DNA of 20,510 nucleotides, from the IMG/VR virus record IMGVR_UViG_3300005337_000052, positions 1-20,510 of that record, one strand, 5' to 3'. Below, piece after piece: positions 333 through 8,790 of this stretch. The notes below the pieces were generated by a model that made no database searches, was not told where the DNA came from, and worked only from the letters and a program-made list of their open reading frames with translations. The DNA is from a virus. Both the position numbers and the translations under genes were made by a program. How positions within the stretch are numbered: position 1 is the first letter of the stretch; every line of letters starts with the position of its first letter.

Positions 333-617
333 TTGAAAACTACTGAAATGGCGCTTATCACATATGGCGTTACTTGCACAACAAATAGCGATGGTGCAGC
401 AGTAAAAGATATTTATTTGCTTATTACAGACGAACAGAAGTCTAAAGAGTTCATTAAAACAATTTCAGAATATTTGAACACTAGACCGGATGCACCTGCA
501 TGGTTGTGGAGTTTGTCCGATTTCATTAGCAAGATGCCTTGCAAAGATATTCCAGGAATGAAGAAATCGGACGAAAAAGATAAGCCAATTATTGCAAGCA
601 AAACCGATGAATATTAA
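333..617 (+). CDS. hypothetical protein
   Basis: 94 aa if it starts at TTG 333, which has a GAAAGG Shine-Dalgarno at 321-326. An in-frame ATG lies at 348. The frame is open back to an ATG at 276, but that ATG is inside the T arm of the tRNA and cannot be a sensible start. The sequence is soluble, with no membrane segment and no motif I recognise. Its 3' end overlaps the start of the ATPase gene by 11 bases, which suggests translational coupling and a role in the same replication/recombination operon. Confidence 0.6.
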   Translation: MKTTEMALITYGVTCTTNSDGAAVKDIYLLITDEQKSKEFIKTISEYLNTRPDAPAWLWSLSDFISKMPCKDIPGMKKSDEKDKPIIASKTDEY

Positions 618-1314
618 AGATATCGTGCCAGTAAATACGCTTGCCATGAAATATGGTGTAAAGGCAGTTATTTACGGTCCACCTGGAAGCGGCAAAACTC
701 CTTTAGTTGAAACTGCGCCACGTCCTTTAATGTTAGTTTGCGAACCCGGCATGATGTCGCTTCGCAAGTCAAAGGTTCCTGCTTATTTAGCCAATACTCA
801 CGGCCGAATAGAAGGATTTTTTAAATGGTTCTTTGGTTCAACTGAAGCTAACCAATTTGATACATTATTTATTGATAGTGGATCGCAGCTAGCAGAGATT
901 GTGCTTTCTGACGTTTTCGGTTCATTCAAAGACGGCAGAAAAGTATATGGAGAAATGTCTCGCATTTGCATGGAATGGTTCGATCCTTTATTCTATATGC
1001 CTAACAAGCATATAATAATTCTAGCAAAAGAGGTTTCAGAAGAATATACAGTAACAGGTAACGTTAACGGCATACCAACATTAACAACATATAAGTTCAA
1101 AAAGCCATTCTTTCCAGGGCAAGACTTACCTATGAAGATTGCCCACAGGTACGATATGATATGGCGGGCTAATCGTGAAGTTATACAGGGGGCAAAACAA
1201 ACAGTAATATATTGTCAACCGACAGACGCATTTATCGCAAGGGACCGAAGCGGGCAACTTGCCGATAAAGAACCTGGAAACCTTTCATATCTATTTCAAA
1301 AGGCTATGGACTGA
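607..1314 (+). CDS. AAA_24 / RecA-fold phage ATPase (Sak4-like)
   Basis: 235 aa from ATG 607; an in-frame TTG at 592 is an alternative, and neither has a strong Shine-Dalgarno. The Walker A motif GPPGSGKT is at residues 24-31 and a Walker B strand TLFIDS at about 86-91. Size and layout fit the phage nucleotide-binding AAA_24 family, which includes Sak4-type single-strand annealing/recombination ATPases. Known members work with phage SSB proteins in annealing and strand exchange. Here a DUF669-type putative SSB lies two genes downstream, which supports that role. The ATPase assignment is firm; the recombination role comes from family and context. Confidence 0.8.
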   Translation: MNIKDIVPVNTLAMKYGVKAVIYGPPGSGKTPLVETAPRPLMLVCEPGMMSLRKSKVPAYLANTHGRIEGFFKWFFGSTEANQFDTLFIDSGSQLAEIVLSDVFGSFKDGRKVYGEMSRICMEWFDPLFYMPNKHIIILAKEVSEEYTVTGNVNGIPTLTTYKFKKPFFPGQDLPMKIAHRYDMIWRANREVIQGAKQTVIYCQPTDAFIARDRSGQLADKEPGNLSYLFQKAMD

Positions 1315-1622: not shown

Positions 1623-2378
1623 ATGACCCCGTTCCAATTTGATGCACGCACCGTTCCCCCTGCCAGTGCTGACGGTAACGCACCGTTGCCTATTGGCGAA
1701 TGGCCGATGATTATTACCGCATCGGAAATCGTACAAAATGCTCAGAAAACAGGCGGATATGTAAAGTTTAAAGTGGTAATTATTGACGGCGAGCATAAAG
1801 GCCATGAAGGCTTTTACCGTCTCAATATGTACCATGAAAATGCAAAGACAGTCGAAATCGCGCGCAAGCAAATGTCGGCGCTTTGCTATGTGACGCAGAA
1901 ATTCATGCTTAACCAGCTTGATGATTTGCACAACATTCCGTTTATTGGTGTTGTCAAATCGAACGCTACGGAAGAATATCCAAATGCGACGCAGATTAAT
2001 GGCGTTAAGGATATTCAAGGTAACGACCCTGGAAAGAAAGCACAGACGCAACCGCAAGCCGCACCGCAACAACAGCCACAACAATTTGCACAACCGCCGC
2101 AAGGTAACGTATCGGCGCCAACGACAGCGCAATGGGCAGGCCAACCGCAGCCACAGCAGCAGGCACCGCAACAGCCCGCACAGTGGACCGCACCGCAGCC
2201 AGCGCAACAGCCGACGCAGCCTGCCGGATGGGTTTCAGGCCCGGCGCAAGCTGCCGCACCGCAGCAGCCCGCCTGGGGGCCTGCGGGTTCTGTAAACAAC
2301 CAGCAAGCGCCAGCGCAAGGCGGGCAGCCTGCCTATCAGCCCGGCGCACAGCCGCCCTGGGGCCAGCAAGGTTCCTGA
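1623..2378 (+). CDS. DUF669-family putative ssDNA-binding protein with Q/P/A-rich tail
   Basis: 251 aa, ATG with an AAAAGGA Shine-Dalgarno at about 1609-1615. Residues 1-125 fit the DUF669 pattern: a PLPIGEW strand near 21-27, then KFKVVIIDGEHKGHEGFYRLN, then an NAKTVEIA...MSALCYV helix. DUF669 proteins accompany phage recombination ATPases and are generally treated as SSB-like. Residues 140-251 are a low-complexity tail of Gln, Pro, Ala, Gly and Trp, like the disordered linkers of bacterial SSBs. The protein ends in WGQQGS and lacks the acidic DDIPF-type tip. The gene is richer in G+C than its neighbours, and the terminator follows 26 bases after its stop codon. Confidence 0.78.
   Translation: MTPFQFDARTVPPASADGNAPLPIGEWPMIITASEIVQNAQKTGGYVKFKVVIIDGEHKGHEGFYRLNMYHENAKTVEIARKQMSALCYVTQKFMLNQLDDLHNIPFIGVVKSNATEEYPNATQINGVKDIQGNDPGKKAQTQPQAAPQQQPQQFAQPPQGNVSAPTTAQWAGQPQPQQQAPQQPAQWTAPQPAQQPTQPAGWVSGPAQAAAPQQPAWGPAGSVNNQQAPAQGGQPAYQPGAQPPWGQQGS
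2041..2375 (+). repeat. low-complexity Q/P/A-rich coding repeat
   Basis: CAG/CAA, CCG and GCA codons recur irregularly (QPQQQ, APQQP, AQQP-type units) and encode the disordered C-terminal tail of the DUF669 protein. The bias also creates long spurious open frames on both strands. Such tracts can expand or shrink by slippage. Confidence 0.8.
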
Positions 2379-2440: not shown

Positions 2441-3316
2441 ATGACCGAACCAATTAATTTTGAATTGCCTGGAGTTAAGAAGCTTATTGCTTCTGACATT
2501 TTGAAAGATATAGATAGCGCAGCAATTAAACTTTATACGGAACCGCCGCGTTCGCATTTAGGCGCTTCCATTATAGGCAAAGCTTGCTCTAGACAATTAT
2601 GGTATGGATTCCGATGGTGCGAATATGAAAGCCATAACGGAAGGCAAATGCGATTGTTTAATCGCGGGCATAAAGAAGAAGAAAGGTTTATTGAATGGCT
2701 GTCGGTTGCAGGCTATCGCGTTCAAGCATTTAACCCTGATACTGGCAAGCAATGGAGGGTTAGCGCATTAAATGGGCATTTCGGCGGTTCTTTAGATGGC
2801 AAGATTTGGATTAATCAAAAATGGAATTATCAAAAGCCTTTGCTATTAGAGTTCAAAACTAACGCAACAGGCGCAGGCTTTAATAACTTGCTGGCAAACG
2901 GATGCGAAATTGAAAAGCCTATTCATTTTGACCAGCAATGTATTTATGGGCATCTTGAAGATTTAGATTATAGCTTATATCTAAATGTGTGTAAAAACGA
3001 CGATAACATATATCCTGAAATTGTCGAGTTAGATAAAGAAAGAGGCAAACGATTAGTTATCAAAGCAGAAAGAATAATCTTTAGTAAGAAACCGCCAGAA
3101 CGATTATCCAATAATTCATCGCATTTTGAATGCAAGTTTTGTGCGTTTAGGGAGATTTGCTTTATTGGCAAACCTGCACAACATAATTGCCGTTCCTGCA
3201 AGAATTCAACGCCTGTTGAAAATGCCGAATGGCATTGCGCTTATTGGGGGCAAAACATACCGAAAGACTTTCTGATTAAAGGCTGCGAACACTGGCAGGA
3301 TATTACAAAGGAATAA
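2441..3316 (+). CDS. Cas4/AddB-like PD-(D/E)XK nuclease with Fe-S and Cys4 motifs
   Basis: 291 aa. The nuclease core is visible: RGHKEEERF (H77), GGSLDG (D119), LLEFK (E137, K139) and QxxxY (Q165, Y169). Cysteines C49 (in KACSRQLW) and C231-x2-C234-x5-C240 match the 4Fe-4S signature of Cas4 and AddB. Beyond it lies a second cluster, C250-x2-C253, C266 and C282, probably a zinc knuckle. Such enzymes resect or trim DNA ends, so this is likely the exonuclease partner of the Sak4-like ATPase and putative SSB. There is no CRISPR array or Cas1/Cas2 gene here, so a CRISPR role is unlikely. The ATG has no clear Shine-Dalgarno and sits in an AAATCATG context shared with two later genes. Confidence 0.82.
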   Translation: MTEPINFELPGVKKLIASDILKDIDSAAIKLYTEPPRSHLGASIIGKACSRQLWYGFRWCEYESHNGRQMRLFNRGHKEEERFIEWLSVAGYRVQAFNPDTGKQWRVSALNGHFGGSLDGKIWINQKWNYQKPLLLEFKTNATGAGFNNLLANGCEIEKPIHFDQQCIYGHLEDLDYSLYLNVCKNDDNIYPEIVELDKERGKRLVIKAERIIFSKKPPERLSNNSSHFECKFCAFREICFIGKPAQHNCRSCKNSTPVENAEWHCAYWGQNIPKDFLIKGCEHWQDITKE

Positions 3317-3318
3317 CA

Positions 3319-3567
3319 GTGAAACAACCAAATTGGAATACTAAAAGAAAAAAGCCATACACAGAAACAGGAGTTAGAAGATTTTATTGTATTAGATGCA
3401 GAGAAAAGCAAGCCACGCAACAATGGCAAATTTGTTCTGACGGCAACAACTATAGACCGATATGCAATTTATGCGATGTAGAATTAAATACTGAAATATT
3501 ACATTTTATGAAAGACCCTCATAGAGTAACAAAAATTTGTAAATATAGATTGAAAATTTTTAAATGA
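3319..3567 (+). CDS. small four-Cys zinc-binding protein
   Basis: 82 aa, GTG start with AAAGGA (3307-3312) six bases upstream. It has C24-x2-C27 and C49-x2-C52 (CIRC and CNLC), a treble-clef or zinc-ribbon spacing, in a basic protein with an Arg/Lys-rich N-terminus. The stop overlaps the helicase start in ATGA fashion, so the two are translationally coupled. A DNA- or protein-binding accessory role is plausible. I see no HNH catalytic motif, and the specific function is unknown. Confidence 0.65.
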   Translation: MKQPNWNTKRKKPYTETGVRRFYCIRCREKQATQQWQICSDGNNYRPICNLCDVELNTEILHFMKDPHRVTKICKYRLKIFK

Positions 3568-5198
3568 CAATAGAAACCCGTTGGTATCAGACAGAAGCAG
3601 TAGATAGCATATTTAACTTCTTTGCGTCTGGAAAGAAAGGAAATCCGCTAGTTGCCTTGCCAACAGGCACGGGTAAGAGCATTGTTATCGGCTTATTTAT
3701 TCAGAAGGTCTTGCAATACTGGCCTAGCCAGCGTATTTTATTGGCTACACATATCAAAGAATTGATAGAACAGAATGTTAATAAGATACGGGATATCTGG
3801 CCTTTAGCACCTGTGGGCATCAATTCTTCAGGTTTGAGGCAGCGTGACACGGTACAGCCAATTATTTGTGCTGGAATTAAAAGTATTTATGACAAGGTGG
3901 CGCAGCTAGGTCGGCGCGATATTCTGCTTATTGACGAAGCTCATTTGCTAGCTCCTAGTCAAGATTCTATGTATAAGGTGGCAATAGCTGCCTTGAAACA
4001 ACTTAACCCGCATCTTATTATTGTAGGATTAACTGCTACTGCTTACCGTATGGGGCAGGGAATGTTAACCGAAGGAGACATATTCACAGACATTTGCTAT
4101 GATTTAACCGATATTGCAGGCTTTAATAGGCTTATTGCAGAAGGTTATCTCTGTCATTTGCTGCCTAAACAAACTGAAACGCAAATAGATGTTTCTAGCG
4201 TTGGTATTAACAATGGAGATTTCGCCAAAGGTGAATTAGAAAGGGCTGTCGATAAAGAATCTTTAAATTATAGAATTCTGGAAGAAAGTTGCAGATTAGG
4301 TGCCAATCGGCAATCATGGCTTTTGTTCGCAACTGGAATAGATCACTGCGTACATATGTCAGATATGCTAAACCGAGAATTTGGAATAGCTGCAACATTT
4401 GTGCATTCCAAACTAGAAGACAAAGAAAGAGATAGAAGAATAAAGGCTTTTAAGGATGGGGAATACCGCTGTATAGTAAACGTCAACATGCTTACTATCG
4501 GATTCGATCATCCGCCTATAGATTTAATTATTCATGCTCGTCCTACATTGTCTCCCGGCTTATGGGTTCAAATGAATGGCAGAGGCACTAGACCTAGTTT
4601 GCCAACTGGAAAACTTAACTGTCTTGCTTTAGATTTTGCAAAGAATACACTAAGACTAGGCCCGATTAACGATCCGAAAAAGCCACGTAAAAAAGGAGAA
4701 GGCACAGGCGATGCGCCTGTTAGAGTTTGCCCGGAATGTGGCGTTTACAATGCAGCTTCAGCTAGACAATGCTTTAACTGTGGCTGCGAGTTTGAATTTA
4801 AAACCAAACTGCAAAGCGAAGCGTCTTCAATTGAATTAATCCGCACCGATACACCAATTATCGAAACATACGAAATTGATAAGGTTTTTTATCATTATCA
4901 TTTAAGCAAGAAAGATAATGCAAAGCCTTGCATGCGTATTCAGTACATAGCTAAAGGAGGAATGCAGGATTTTACCGATTGGGTATTTCTAGATCATCCG
5001 GGCTTTGCAGGGCATAAAGCGCGCGATTGGTGGCGTGAACGCCACGGATACGAACCGCCGACGCCTGAGACATGCGCGCCGTTCAAGTCAGCTACAGAAG
5101 CAGCATTGTCCATTTGCGGGCAATTGCGAGTTCCTAAAAGAATTAGCGTTTGGGTTAACCGCCCCAATCCTGCTGTTCAAAGGGTAGAATATGAATAA
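3564..5198 (+). CDS. SF2 DEAD/DEAH helicase, RadD/SSL2-like
   Basis: 544 aa. Visible motifs are a Q-motif-like TRWYQTEAV at the N-terminus, Walker A PTGTGKS (33-39), DEAH (124-127), TAT (157-159) and motif VI QMNGRGTR (336-343). A zinc ribbon follows (C389, C392, C403, C406), then a C-terminal domain of about 130 residues. A two-RecA-domain core followed by a zinc finger is the layout of RadD-type helicases, which act in recombination and repair. In phages such genes neighbour polymerases and are often labelled replicative helicases. No DnaB-type helicase is in the window, so this may be the phage fork or branch-unwinding enzyme. Start ATG 3564 overlaps the previous stop. Confidence 0.88.
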   Translation: MTIETRWYQTEAVDSIFNFFASGKKGNPLVALPTGTGKSIVIGLFIQKVLQYWPSQRILLATHIKELIEQNVNKIRDIWPLAPVGINSSGLRQRDTVQPIICAGIKSIYDKVAQLGRRDILLIDEAHLLAPSQDSMYKVAIAALKQLNPHLIIVGLTATAYRMGQGMLTEGDIFTDICYDLTDIAGFNRLIAEGYLCHLLPKQTETQIDVSSVGINNGDFAKGELERAVDKESLNYRILEESCRLGANRQSWLLFATGIDHCVHMSDMLNREFGIAATFVHSKLEDKERDRRIKAFKDGEYRCIVNVNMLTIGFDHPPIDLIIHARPTLSPGLWVQMNGRGTRPSLPTGKLNCLALDFAKNTLRLGPINDPKKPRKKGEGTGDAPVRVCPECGVYNAASARQCFNCGCEFEFKTKLQSEASSIELIRTDTPIIETYEIDKVFYHYHLSKKDNAKPCMRIQYIAKGGMQDFTDWVFLDHPGFAGHKARDWWRERHGYEPPTPETCAPFKSATEAALSICGQLRVPKRISVWVNRPNPAVQRVEYE

Positions 5199-5424
5199 GC
5201 TTCGCTTCCGATTAATTCCATTAATGGAAGTTGCTAAACAGATAGAAGATGTTTTGAATGTCAAGCATCAGAAGGAGCATAATGGTCTAGCGCCGTCTTG
5301 CCTTAGCTGTAAATGGTTCGTTGAGAAAACCGAAATTTGCACTAAATGGAATAGCAGGCCACCGGCAAGAATTATAGCGTTAAGCTGTGCCGACTATAAA
5401 GACACAGACGATATCCCGTTTTGA
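5191..5424 (+). CDS. small Cys4 protein ending in an SSB-type DDIPF tip
   Basis: 77 aa, starting at ATG 5191, which overlaps the helicase stop by 8 bases. An N-terminal helix (residues 8-30) is followed by a probable zinc knuckle, C37-x2-C40-x9-C50-x15-C66. The spacing and flanking residues (CxSCK...C...CxDYxD) resemble the extra Cys cluster at the end of the phage nuclease. The last residues are DTDDIPF. DDIPF is the end of proteobacterial SSB, the peptide bound by RecQ, RecO, PriA, ExoI, the chi subunit and others. The protein could recruit host SSB-partner enzymes or compete with host SSB for them. That function is an inference; the motif is read directly. Confidence 0.72.
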   Translation: MNKLRFRLIPLMEVAKQIEDVLNVKHQKEHNGLAPSCLSCKWFVEKTEICTKWNSRPPARIIALSCADYKDTDDIPF

Positions 5425-5436
5425 AAAGGATTTAAA

Positions 5437-5637
5437 ATGATTAGGCTAACATTTTCGCCAATGCTAGGAACTGAACTTTTTTGGAAAGTTGACGCAAACG
5501 CCTACAGAAAGCAGTTTCCTAATAATACTTGGAAATTTAATCCGTATACAGGAAAAGAAAGAGATTTGCGAGATATTAAAAGCGATCCTACAGGCTTGCT
5601 TATCGTTCCGCCTAACTCTGATTTGCTGGCTTGCTAA
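5437..5637 (+). CDS. hypothetical protein
   Basis: 66 aa, with a strong AAAAGGA Shine-Dalgarno (about 5422-5428) before ATG 5437. It is rich in aromatic residues (TELFWKV, NTWKFNPY) with a basic/acidic middle, and has no motif I recognise. It sits between the DDIPF zinc protein and the clamp-like gene. Another reading frame is also open over most of this stretch, but the Shine-Dalgarno and the exact spacing to the next start favour this one. Confidence 0.6.
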   Translation: MIRLTFSPMLGTELFWKVDANAYRKQFPNNTWKFNPYTGKERDLRDIKSDPTGLLIVPPNSDLLAC

Positions 5638-5640
5638 ATC

Positions 5641-6861
5641 ATGGCAACTAAACGCCGCCGCACCAAACCGCAAGCGACAGATAGCCTATTAGCTGCTGTT
5701 GAATTTGTTTCTCTTATTCAAGGCGATACAGACCATTGTATTTTAAAAGATGGATGGTGCGTAGCCAGCGATACAGTAATGTCTTTAGGCTGCAAGATTA
5801 AAGATGACTTTTCAGCTTGCCCACAGACTAAGAGGCTACTTGCAGCGCTTCGCAAGTGTGAGAGTAGCTTAGCTGTCGCGCAACTTGACGACGCATCTAT
5901 TCAAGTAGTTTCCGGCGGATTGCGCGTGAAGGTGCCTTGCGTGCCGTTTGAGAGCCTGTCTGTACTGTGGGCAGACACAAATATTGCGCCGTTAGATGAT
6001 CGATTTGTCAGTGCATGCAAAGCATTATTGCATTTGACGGTTGAAAAAGGAAACCATGTTTATGAGGCTTCTTTACTATGTACTAATCAAACTATTTCGG
6101 TTACGAACGGCCGCGTTCTTATTGAGTATTGGCACGGTAACAATTTACCTCCTTATTTTGTTTTGCCTTCTAAGAGCGTATCTGTTTTAACAAAGATAAA
6201 CAAGAAAATTAGCGGCTTTGGCTATTCGGGCAATAGCTGCACTTTCCACTTTGAAGATTCGTCTTGGTTTAGAACACAGCTATACGAAGATAAATGGCCT
6301 AACATAGAAAGGCAGTTTGAATTTTATAAAGGTCAACCGCTACAGCAGTTAACGCCAGGATTGTTTGATGCGATAAAACAGATTCAAGAGTTTTGCACAG
6401 ACAAAAAACTAACATTTGCAAGTAACAGGCTTGAATGCAATGGAGCAAGTTTAGATTTAGTTGGATTGCCGAAAGGTCCGAAGGTTAACATTGAAGACTT
6501 TTTAGCCTTAGAAGGATTGGTAAGCAAGGCATTTCATGAAAACGGAAAGAGCTTTTTGTTTGGAGATATGACTAGAGTAGCAATGACTACTTTTGCAGAA
6601 AAAGAAAAACAACAAATAGAACAGATTAAAAAACGCTGGCTATTCTGTCACCCTGAATCATCAAGCTACATTGAAGTATTTACAGAAGCAGAAGCTAAAG
6701 AATGGGAAGGTGCAGACAATGGACTTTGTACTGAAGTAACAAACATTGAAGAACATGAAAAAGCTTATATAGACTACAAGAAACAAAAACAAAATCATAT
6801 TGAATTACCGCCTTCATCGCGCACAGGTTTTGATAATCTAGAAGACGACATTCCGTTCTAA
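5641..6861 (+). CDS. putative DNA sliding clamp (beta/DnaN-like) with SSB-type DDIPF tip
   Basis: 406 aa. The layout resembles a three-domain bacterial beta clamp. Domain 1 (about 14-105) has a helix LLAAVEFVSLI and strand WCVASDTVMSLG. Domain 2 (about 117-225) has TISVTNGRVLIEY, a loop to FVLPSKSVSVL and LYEDKWPNIERQF, closely recalling beta-clamp domain 2 (aTDghrL ... vPrK ... eGkyPd). Domain 3 is about 237-320. A clamp is about 366 aa; here an added charged tail (about 321-406) ends in NLEDDIPF, the proteobacterial SSB tip. It lies 3 bases upstream of the polymerase gene, as expected for a processivity factor. The fold call is by eye, and a structural model would settle it. Confidence 0.62.
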   Translation: MATKRRRTKPQATDSLLAAVEFVSLIQGDTDHCILKDGWCVASDTVMSLGCKIKDDFSACPQTKRLLAALRKCESSLAVAQLDDASIQVVSGGLRVKVPCVPFESLSVLWADTNIAPLDDRFVSACKALLHLTVEKGNHVYEASLLCTNQTISVTNGRVLIEYWHGNNLPPYFVLPSKSVSVLTKINKKISGFGYSGNSCTFHFEDSSWFRTQLYEDKWPNIERQFEFYKGQPLQQLTPGLFDAIKQIQEFCTDKKLTFASNRLECNGASLDLVGLPKGPKVNIEDFLALEGLVSKAFHENGKSFLFGDMTRVAMTTFAEKEKQQIEQIKKRWLFCHPESSSYIEVFTEAEAKEWEGADNGLCTEVTNIEEHEKAYIDYKKQKQNHIELPPSSRTGFDNLEDDIPF

Positions 6862-6864
6862 ATC

Positions 6865-8790
6865 ATGTTTTTTACTCCAAAGCGAACCAAGCAGCAGCCA
6901 GTTTTAAAGCCTGTAGAAAGGCAGCTAGAACCAATACCATTAATGAGTATAGAAGAATTGCGTTCGTCTGTAGGCGAGCCTTTTTTATGCGATACAGAAT
7001 GCTATGTTAATTATTTCCTTGTCTCGTTTACCAGTTTTAAAACTGGTAATGTTATTTATTTTGAGCTATCCCCTGATAGCGTGCCTGATTATAGTTTGTT
7101 TAATTTTATTATGTGGAGTCATTGCATCGTTGGTTTTAATAGCACTAAGTATGATTTGCCAATGTTAAGTTTGTTCTTTGCGCTTGCTGATACAAAGACA
7201 TTAAAAGAAGCTTCCGATGATTTGATTTTGAATGGTTTGACTCCTTATTTTTTCATGGAAAAATATAAGGTACAAATTTATAAAATTAATCATATCGACC
7301 TAATTGAAGTTGCACCGCTAAGCGCGTCTTTAAAAGCATACGCAGCCCGTATGCACATTAGACGCCTGCAAGAATTGCCATTTTCACCGCACAGTGCATT
7401 AACACAGCAGCAAGCCTTATACGTCAGAGATTACAATATTCATGGTGATAACGTAGCCACGGCATTTCTTTACGCTGAACTATTACAACAAATCAAGCTG
7501 CGCGAAGCTCTAGGCAAAAAATATAAGCTAGAGCTAAGGTCAAAATCGGATGCACAGATTGCCGAAGCAGTTATAGGCAGTGAAATACGCAAGCGAGTTA
7601 ATCGCAAGATTAGCGTTCCTGAATTACCATGTAATTATAGCTTCCAATATGATCCGCCTAGCTATATGCAGTTTGCATCGCCTGCATTGCAAGAAGTATT
7701 TTCTAAAGTCTGCGAAGCTACATTCTATTTGAATGGTAAAGGCGAACCGGAATGCGAGCAAATTAAACAACTAAAATTTAAATTTGGTTATAGCATTTAT
7801 CAAATGGGCATAGGCGGTTTGCATAGCTGCGAATCTAGCATTACCCACAGGAAAGAAAATGGTTTTGTTCTTTTAGATAGGGACGTAGCCTCTTTCTATC
7901 CTCGCATCAAATTAAACAACCGATACTATCCTGAGCATTTAGGAGAAGACTATATTGATGTTTATAATGACTTGGTAGAAGAACGCCTAAGATGCAAAGC
8001 AGCTAAAGACAGCGTAGGCGCAGATAGCGGCAAGATTATTATTAATGGCGGATTCGGAAAGCTAGGGAGTCCTTATTCGCTTTTCTACAGCCCTAAGTTA
8101 ATGGTTCAAGTTACCATTACAGGGCAGCTATCCCTACTCATGCTTATTGAAAGCATAGAAGGCATTGGTATTTCTGTTGTTTCAGCTAATACCGACGGCA
8201 TCATTATTAAATGCCCGGAATCACGCAAAGCCGACCTAAACGCAGTTATCCAACTGTGGGAAAAACGCTGTTCTTTTGAAACCGAAGAAACAGAGTATTT
8301 ATCGGTTCATTCGCGCGACGTTAATAATTACATTGCCGTGAAGACTGACGGCAAAGCAAAGACTAAAGGGGTCTACTCTGAGAAGGGCAGCGCCGGCAAT
8401 TCCCGTTTATCAAAGAACCCTGAAGCTCTTGTCTGTGCGGACGCTGCCATAGCCTTCATAACCAAGGGGACCCCCATAGAAGACACTATTTTAAAGAACC
8501 TTGACCTTACCCGCTTCGTTGTCGTCCGTAACGTCAAAGGGGGTGGACATAAAAACGGCGTGTATCTCGGTAAAGTTGTTCGCTGGTATTACGCTAAAGG
8601 TGAGCTAGAGAGCATTCGCTATGTCAATACAGGAAACAGCGTTGCAAATAGCGAAGGCGGAAAACCCTGTATGGATTTACCGCCTACTTTTCCAACTGAT
8701 ATTGATTACGACAGGTATATTGCTAGAGCATACGAAATTCTTTATGAGACTGGAACAGTAAAACGCCCCGATCTTTTGTTTATGTTATGA
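6865..8790 (+). CDS. family B DNA polymerase with 3'-5' exonuclease
   Basis: 641 aa. Exonuclease motifs: DTE (D43, E45), FNSTKYD (91-97), and Y190...D195, the last with one residue more than the usual spacing. Polymerase motifs: A, DVASFYP (340-346); B, KIIINGGFG (390-398); C, NTDG (442-445), where the usual DTD is NTD. It is shorter than most PolB enzymes and shows no terminal-protein-priming insertions that I can recognise. The extreme C-terminus RPDLLFML resembles a clamp-binding peptide, and the upstream gene encodes a clamp-like protein. The gene is the last of the + strand operon and its end overlaps the convergent tail operon by 11 bases. Probably the phage replicative polymerase. Confidence 0.88.
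   Translation: MFFTPKRTKQQPVLKPVERQLEPIPLMSIEELRSSVGEPFLCDTECYVNYFLVSFTSFKTGNVIYFELSPDSVPDYSLFNFIMWSHCIVGFNSTKYDLPMLSLFFALADTKTLKEASDDLILNGLTPYFFMEKYKVQIYKINHIDLIEVAPLSASLKAYAARMHIRRLQELPFSPHSALTQQQALYVRDYNIHGDNVATAFLYAELLQQIKLREALGKKYKLELRSKSDAQIAEAVIGSEIRKRVNRKISVPELPCNYSFQYDPPSYMQFASPALQEVFSKVCEATFYLNGKGEPECEQIKQLKFKFGYSIYQMGIGGLHSCESSITHRKENGFVLLDRDVASFYPRIKLNNRYYPEHLGEDYIDVYNDLVEERLRCKAAKDSVGADSGKIIINGGFGKLGSPYSLFYSPKLMVQVTITGQLSLLMLIESIEGIGISVVSANTDGIIIKCPESRKADLNAVIQLWEKRCSFETEETEYLSVHSRDVNNYIAVKTDGKAKTKGVYSEKGSAGNSRLSKNPEALVCADAAIAFITKGTPIEDTILKNLDLTRFVVVRNVKGGGHKNGVYLGKVVRWYYAKGELESIRYVNTGNSVANSEGGKPCMDLPPTFPTDIDYDRYIARAYEILYETGTVKRPDLLFML

Follow-up and report, generated by a model that had tools for sequence, protein, structure and literature searches.

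SSB-type C-terminal tips on helicase- and clamp-linked proteins of phage and prophage modules

In a group of phage and prophage modules the acidic C-terminal tip typical of SSB is found on proteins other than the phage SSB. These modules combine Sak4, a DUF669 SSB, a Cas4-type exonuclease and a RadD-like helicase; some also have a polymerase and a beta-clamp homologue. The phage SSB has no tip, but most modules do have one, nearly always a single copy, and it occurs on at least five unrelated carriers: the Cys4 protein, the DUF6511 protein, the beta-clamp homologue, the RadD-like helicase and the exonuclease. The carriers are mostly encoded beside the helicase gene or overlapping it. We read this, on the basis of sequence comparison, as a portable SSB docking peptide that has been moved off SSB onto helicase- and clamp-linked proteins. 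We regard it as about as likely as not that the DDIPF ends serve as genuine docking tips of the SSB type, displayed by such proteins and most likely docking SSB partners of the host.

Two tips in one viral fragment

The window, i.e. the whole stretch of 20,510 bases analysed here, derives from a virus fragment in IMG/VR (Table 1). The initial annotation had pointed out that two of its proteins end like SSB, and the reading frames bear this out: the Cys4 protein ends in DTDDIPF and the clamp homologue in NLEDDIPF. It was also right that the codons of the two DDIPF ends differ, the two proteins belonging to different families, and that the DUF669 SSB has no tip (its end being ...PPWGQQGS). A scan of the whole record for DDIPF followed by a stop codon returned two sites only, both at the ends of the carrier genes, and the reversed control pattern returned none. 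Both ends combine an acidic stretch with a hydrophobic residue at position -3, Pro at -2 and Phe at -1, as expected of SSB-Ct, and are predicted by AF2 to be exposed on flexible tails in the clamp as well as in the Cys4 protein. The OB-fold SSB domain (PF00436) is absent from both carriers, neither of which has a Pfam match at E 0.5. A 66-aa ORF lies between the two carriers (window positions 5437-5637).

Table 1. Positions of the module genes and of the two tips in the window
Feature	Coordinates	Strand	Evidence or remark
Sak4-like RecA-core ATPase/annealase, start codon uncertain	592..1314	+	phrog_124, E=4.5e-37
DUF669 SSB	1623..2378	+	no tip at C-terminus
Cas4-domain exonuclease	2441..3316	+	phrog_1990, E=2.9e-94
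RadD-like SF2 helicase, adjoining the tip carriers; carrier itself in other phages	3564..5198	+	E. coli RadD, E=6e-48
Cys4 (zinc-ribbon-like) protein, 77 aa; tip carrier 1	5191..5424	+	phrog_23504, E=1.2e-10
SSB-type tip DDIPF-stop of the Cys4 protein, GACGATATCCCGTTTTGA	5407..5424	+	pattern scan; acidic tip in 32/35 homologues
Beta-sliding-clamp homologue, 406 aa; tip carrier 2	5641..6861	+	phrog_947, E=3e-32
SSB-type tip DDIPF-stop of the clamp homologue, GACGACATTCCGTTCTAA	6844..6861	+	pattern scan; P and F invariant, 24 tip-bearing clamps
Phage DNA polymerase, directly after the clamp	6865..8790	+	phrog_1252, E=2.7e-189

The match of the Cys4 protein to phrog_23504 extends to the last profile position, and the protein shows the hallmarks of this family, i.e. 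the C-x2-C ... C ... C arrangement and a C-terminal IPF. Across the alignment of its homologues C37, C40, C50, C66 and P76 are invariant and F77 is near-invariant. The AF2 models were built from alignments of window and viral-contig sequences only; in that of the Cys4 protein the C-terminal block has a mean pLDDT of 54, the tip being of low confidence, and a Foldseek search with this model gave no significant match. By hhalign (E=1.3e-6, Prob 91), the Cys4 protein is related to the C-terminal zinc domain of the exonuclease (about 3170-3313), but in these phages the tip is found only on the free-standing protein and not on the related domain. In the window the start of the Cys4 gene overlaps the stop of the helicase gene by 8 nt, and for 34 of the 41 Cys4 genes the start lies between -60 and +30 nt relative to the helicase stop, which suggests coupled translation. 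The Cys4 gene of Paracoccus phage vB_PmaS-R3 (L005:8968-9198) is unannotated in its record.

The clamp homologue belongs to phrog_947, annotated as polymerase processivity factor, and resembles beta sliding clamps both in sequence profile (best E=1.5e-10 against bacterial beta clamps) and, as a monomer AF2 model, in fold (best Foldseek E=3e-17, TM about 0.6). According to this model, the clamp fold spans about residues 10-316 and is followed by helices and by a disordered C-terminal tail, the last 21 residues (386-406) having pLDDT values below 50. The tip is the sole conserved portion of this tail: among 24 tip-bearing clamps the entropy is about 3 bits at the linker positions, about 0.25 bits at I(-3) and D(-5), and 0 bits at P and F. 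Judged from these alignments, the tip is under selection and the linker is not. A single-protein search of the viral contigs with the window clamp returned no relative. The clamp L047:3247-4476, closely related to that of RcTitan, ends in DDEIQF instead of DDEIPF, either through genuine loss or through an error in sequencing.

Distribution of the tip

Related modules of 20 named phages were collected by clamp or Cys4 homology, and 80 viral contigs were collected with an alignment of the polymerase, for which the tip was not used. For the count of specificity, the tip was defined as an acidic ending of the form [DE]x(0-2)[ILVM]PF. Such an ending was present in 32 of 35 Cys4 proteins, in 22 of 81 clamps and in 3 of 74 helicases, and was absent from the SSBs (0/53), exonucleases (0/65), Sak4 proteins (0/51) and polymerases (0/95), as well as from the other mechanical ORFs of the related loci (0/11,566). 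This last figure, set against those for the Cys4 proteins and the clamps, excludes chance as the source of the endings. Among 59 tabulated tips, which had been chosen for their PF end, I, V, L or M stands at -3 in 57 and D or E at -4 in 51. Across 60 whole Pseudomonadota genomes (1.5-8 Mb), [DE][DE]IPF followed by a stop is usually single and located at ssb. Extra matches to [DE][ILV]PF-stop in four whole records were rejected, as they do not lie in ORFs of at least 30 aa ending in the tip.

Nineteen of the 20 named phages have a single tip-bearing gene in the module. The carrier is the Cys4 protein in 13 of them (e.g. PmaS-R3, Halfdan, XAJ2 and VpKK5); in five it is the clamp (phage 73, FtMidnight, KL1, RcTitan and Kmi2C), all without a detected Cys4 gene, and in phage 9g it is the helicase. 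In IME_AB3 there is no tip in the module and none in the whole record. A similar picture emerged from 71 phage loci that have both a helicase and a clamp, were found without use of the tip and were scored with a slightly looser pattern: an SSB-type tip is present in 56, and exactly one in 55 of these. Sorted by carrier, 30 of the 71 loci have the tip on the Cys4 protein, 20 on the clamp, five on the helicase, one (the window) on both the Cys4 protein and the clamp, and 15 have none. Extra loci from searches with single window proteins (L274, L280, L284-L286) follow the same pattern, with more clamp and helicase carriers.

The initial annotation had proposed that absence of the ending from homologues would count against a role for it, and by that rule the claim for the clamp alone looks weak, because 59 of 81 clamp homologues have no tip; conservation does hold for the Cys4 protein. 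In phages with a tip-less clamp, either the Cys4 protein or the helicase usually carries the tip. On the polymerase tree at least five changes are needed to account for the clamp tip. Cys4 tips and clamp tips exclude each other significantly when ancestry is ignored (Fisher p=1.2e-5), but not on supported independent branches, where there are too few independent branch pairs. The window is the sole case with both tips among the 71 loci. Its helicase has its closest relatives among the phages of the clamp-tip group (52%), and on the polymerase tree the window stands beside AH03, a Cys4 phage, with support that is not strong. Its two tips may reasonably be taken as a mosaic or transitional state. 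What had been proposed as a relocation of SSB function thus stands insofar as the tip is conserved, selected and located on other proteins than SSB, but two carriers at once are the exception, and the number of carrier families rises from the two noticed at first to at least five.

In bacterial genomes, additional matches to [DE][DE]IPF-stop pointed to DUF6511 proteins and to an exonuclease of the window family ending in EEIPF. Prophage modules were chosen by exonuclease family alone to avoid bias, and 40 regions were read. Sak4, exonuclease and RadD-like helicase occur together in 34 chromosomal prophage modules, L305 being counted although it was found by its tip. Of these, 31 have one tip, which is carried by DUF6511 in 29, by the exonuclease in one (L305) and by the helicase in one (L323). 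Two of the three modules without a canonical tip have a DUF6511 protein ending in TPF or APF. A Cys4 carrier is present in L345 as well. Genomes with DUF6511 are a near-subset of the exonuclease-bearing genomes (28/29). DUF6511 (PF20121) resembles the Cys4 carrier in being small and in bearing the tip at its end, which the Pfam profile reaches, and most of its genes overlap or adjoin the helicase gene, as Cys4 genes do; it differs in having no Cys4 motif, and no relation between the two was detected. The tip is also present in modules without clamp or polymerase and is therefore independent of their presence. Since 15 of the 71 phage loci and three of the 34 prophage modules have no canonical tip, it is not strictly essential everywhere.

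One bacterial genome (G008, L288-L294) contains seven DUF6511 copies with tip, and the two copies read with their flanks (L307, L308) both lie in modules with Sak4, helicase and exonuclease. Two further bacterial proteins were seen with this kind of ending: an ArdC-N-domain (anti-restriction-like) protein ending in DDIPF (L296:816-1697) and a 333-aa protein ending in DDDIPF (L300:769-1770).

None of the 88 DUF669 SSBs of these modules has the tip; the 25 detected in the prophage modules lack it. A P(x)W motif close to the C-terminus is present in 81 of the 88 and is possibly their own docking tail. Pseudomonadota SSBs end mainly in DDDIPF (52/71) or DDEIPF (10/71), a consensus with which the carrier tips agree; the host tips are nearly uniform and vary too little for an analysis of host-phage covariation.

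Docking partners and alternative explanations

In the mechanism that we propose, the phage SSB would coat the phage ssDNA and would be unable to recruit SSB partners itself, so that the module would present the recruiting tip on another protein, one stationed at the helicase or the clamp. The tip may dock in SSB-Ct pockets, most likely of host SSB-interacting proteins (e.g. PriA, RecO, RecQ, chi or RNase HI), and the docked partners would be brought to phage forks and recombination intermediates.

A different acceptor would be the neighbouring helicase, which the tip could activate or anchor. E. coli RadD binds SSB-Ct via Arg21, Arg49 and Arg145, and this binding raises its ATPase activity (PMC10238739); the phage helicase is RadD-like, and the genes of the small carriers usually overlap or adjoin its gene. 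Nevertheless, the window helicase has A, S and I at the three positions, and among phage and prophage helicases Arg21 and Arg49 are unconserved, position 49 being often N, G, D or E, and only position 145 is mostly K or R. Neither do the pocket sites differ clearly between tip-less and tip-bearing modules. Pocket conservation was rejected as a pointer to the phage acceptor, and since Arg21 and Arg49 are not kept, docking on the helicase via a RadD-type pocket is improbable, which leaves helicase activation quite unlikely. In a co-occurrence analysis, which is a weak test, no phage gene was significantly associated with the tip. Because the tips match the host SSB consensus, two arginines of the helicase pocket are not kept and no phage gene shows significant co-occurrence, we rank host SSB-interacting proteins first as acceptors and Sak4 second.

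It is somewhat unlikely that the tip is a tether internal to the module, which docks on phage Sak4 and holds this annealase at the helicase, clamp or exonuclease. Every prophage region inspected around the exonuclease contains Sak4 (41 Sak4 matches for 41 exonucleases), as do most of the tip-bearing phage loci whose flanks are long enough; a tether of this kind would fit the persistence of the tip in modules without clamp or polymerase, and in phage HK620 the binding of Sak4 to SSB-covered ssDNA requires the SSB tip (PMC5928155). The tips, however, resemble the host SSB (I/V-P-F) and not the YPPF end of HK620, Sak4 is also present in tip-less modules (L019, L026, L051, L065), and the P(x)W tail of the DUF669 SSBs could serve Sak4 instead. 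The carriers might also act as decoys that flood host SSB-interacting proteins and block the host's repair enzymes or a defence that senses SSB. With a free tip of host consensus, a phage protein could compete with host SSB, yet a decoy needs neither a single carrier nor a link to helicase, clamp or exonuclease, both of which are seen here, and we give this explanation a low probability. As for chance or function-less inheritance, the Cys4 family taken by itself might simply have inherited the ending, but the separate appearance of the tip on five or more unrelated proteins, the invariant P-F after variable linkers and the clean control ORFs make it extremely improbable.

Recruitment of host partners by the tip remains our preferred reading. 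With rather less than even confidence, it may be extended to a 'distributed SSB', i.e. a widespread phage and prophage module in which ssDNA binding and tip reside on separate proteins and a near-obligatory portable tag recruits host partners. If so, SSB partner docking would be detachable from ssDNA binding and movable between unrelated proteins, two families of unknown function (phrog_23504 and DUF6511) would be explained as tip carriers, and 9g, Halfdan, FtMidnight and phage 73 would be tractable phages for finding which SSB partners phages need. No earlier report of the tip on these proteins, and no mention of DUF6511, was found in the open-access literature.

Comparison with known systems

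The carrier tips share with SSB-Ct (DDDIPF) the terminal Phe, the preceding Pro, Ile, Val or Leu at -3, the upstream acidic residues and the disordered tail, a likeness known from sequence and predicted structure; they differ in that the phage carriers have no SSB domain. The phage clamp homologue matches the bacterial beta sliding clamp (DnaN) by sequence profile and fold, but it is remote, with 10-15% identity in the Foldseek matches, and has an added tail with the SSB tip at its end. To our knowledge, cellular beta clamps have no tail that ends in an SSB tip. The window helicase shares the SF2 core of RadD, but scores 218 bits against the NF053632 equivalog cut-off of 720 bits; moreover, some phage helicases carry the tip, whereas RadD itself is an SSB-Ct binder (PMC10238739).

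A comparable arrangement is that of HK620, in which a DUF669 SSB ending in NDYPPF adjoins Sak4 and its last six residues are required for Sak4 binding and stimulation (PMC5928155). Both systems have Sak4 and a DUF669 SSB side by side and involve an SSB-like tip; in the group of the window, the SSB is without the tip, and a neighbour protein bears it instead.
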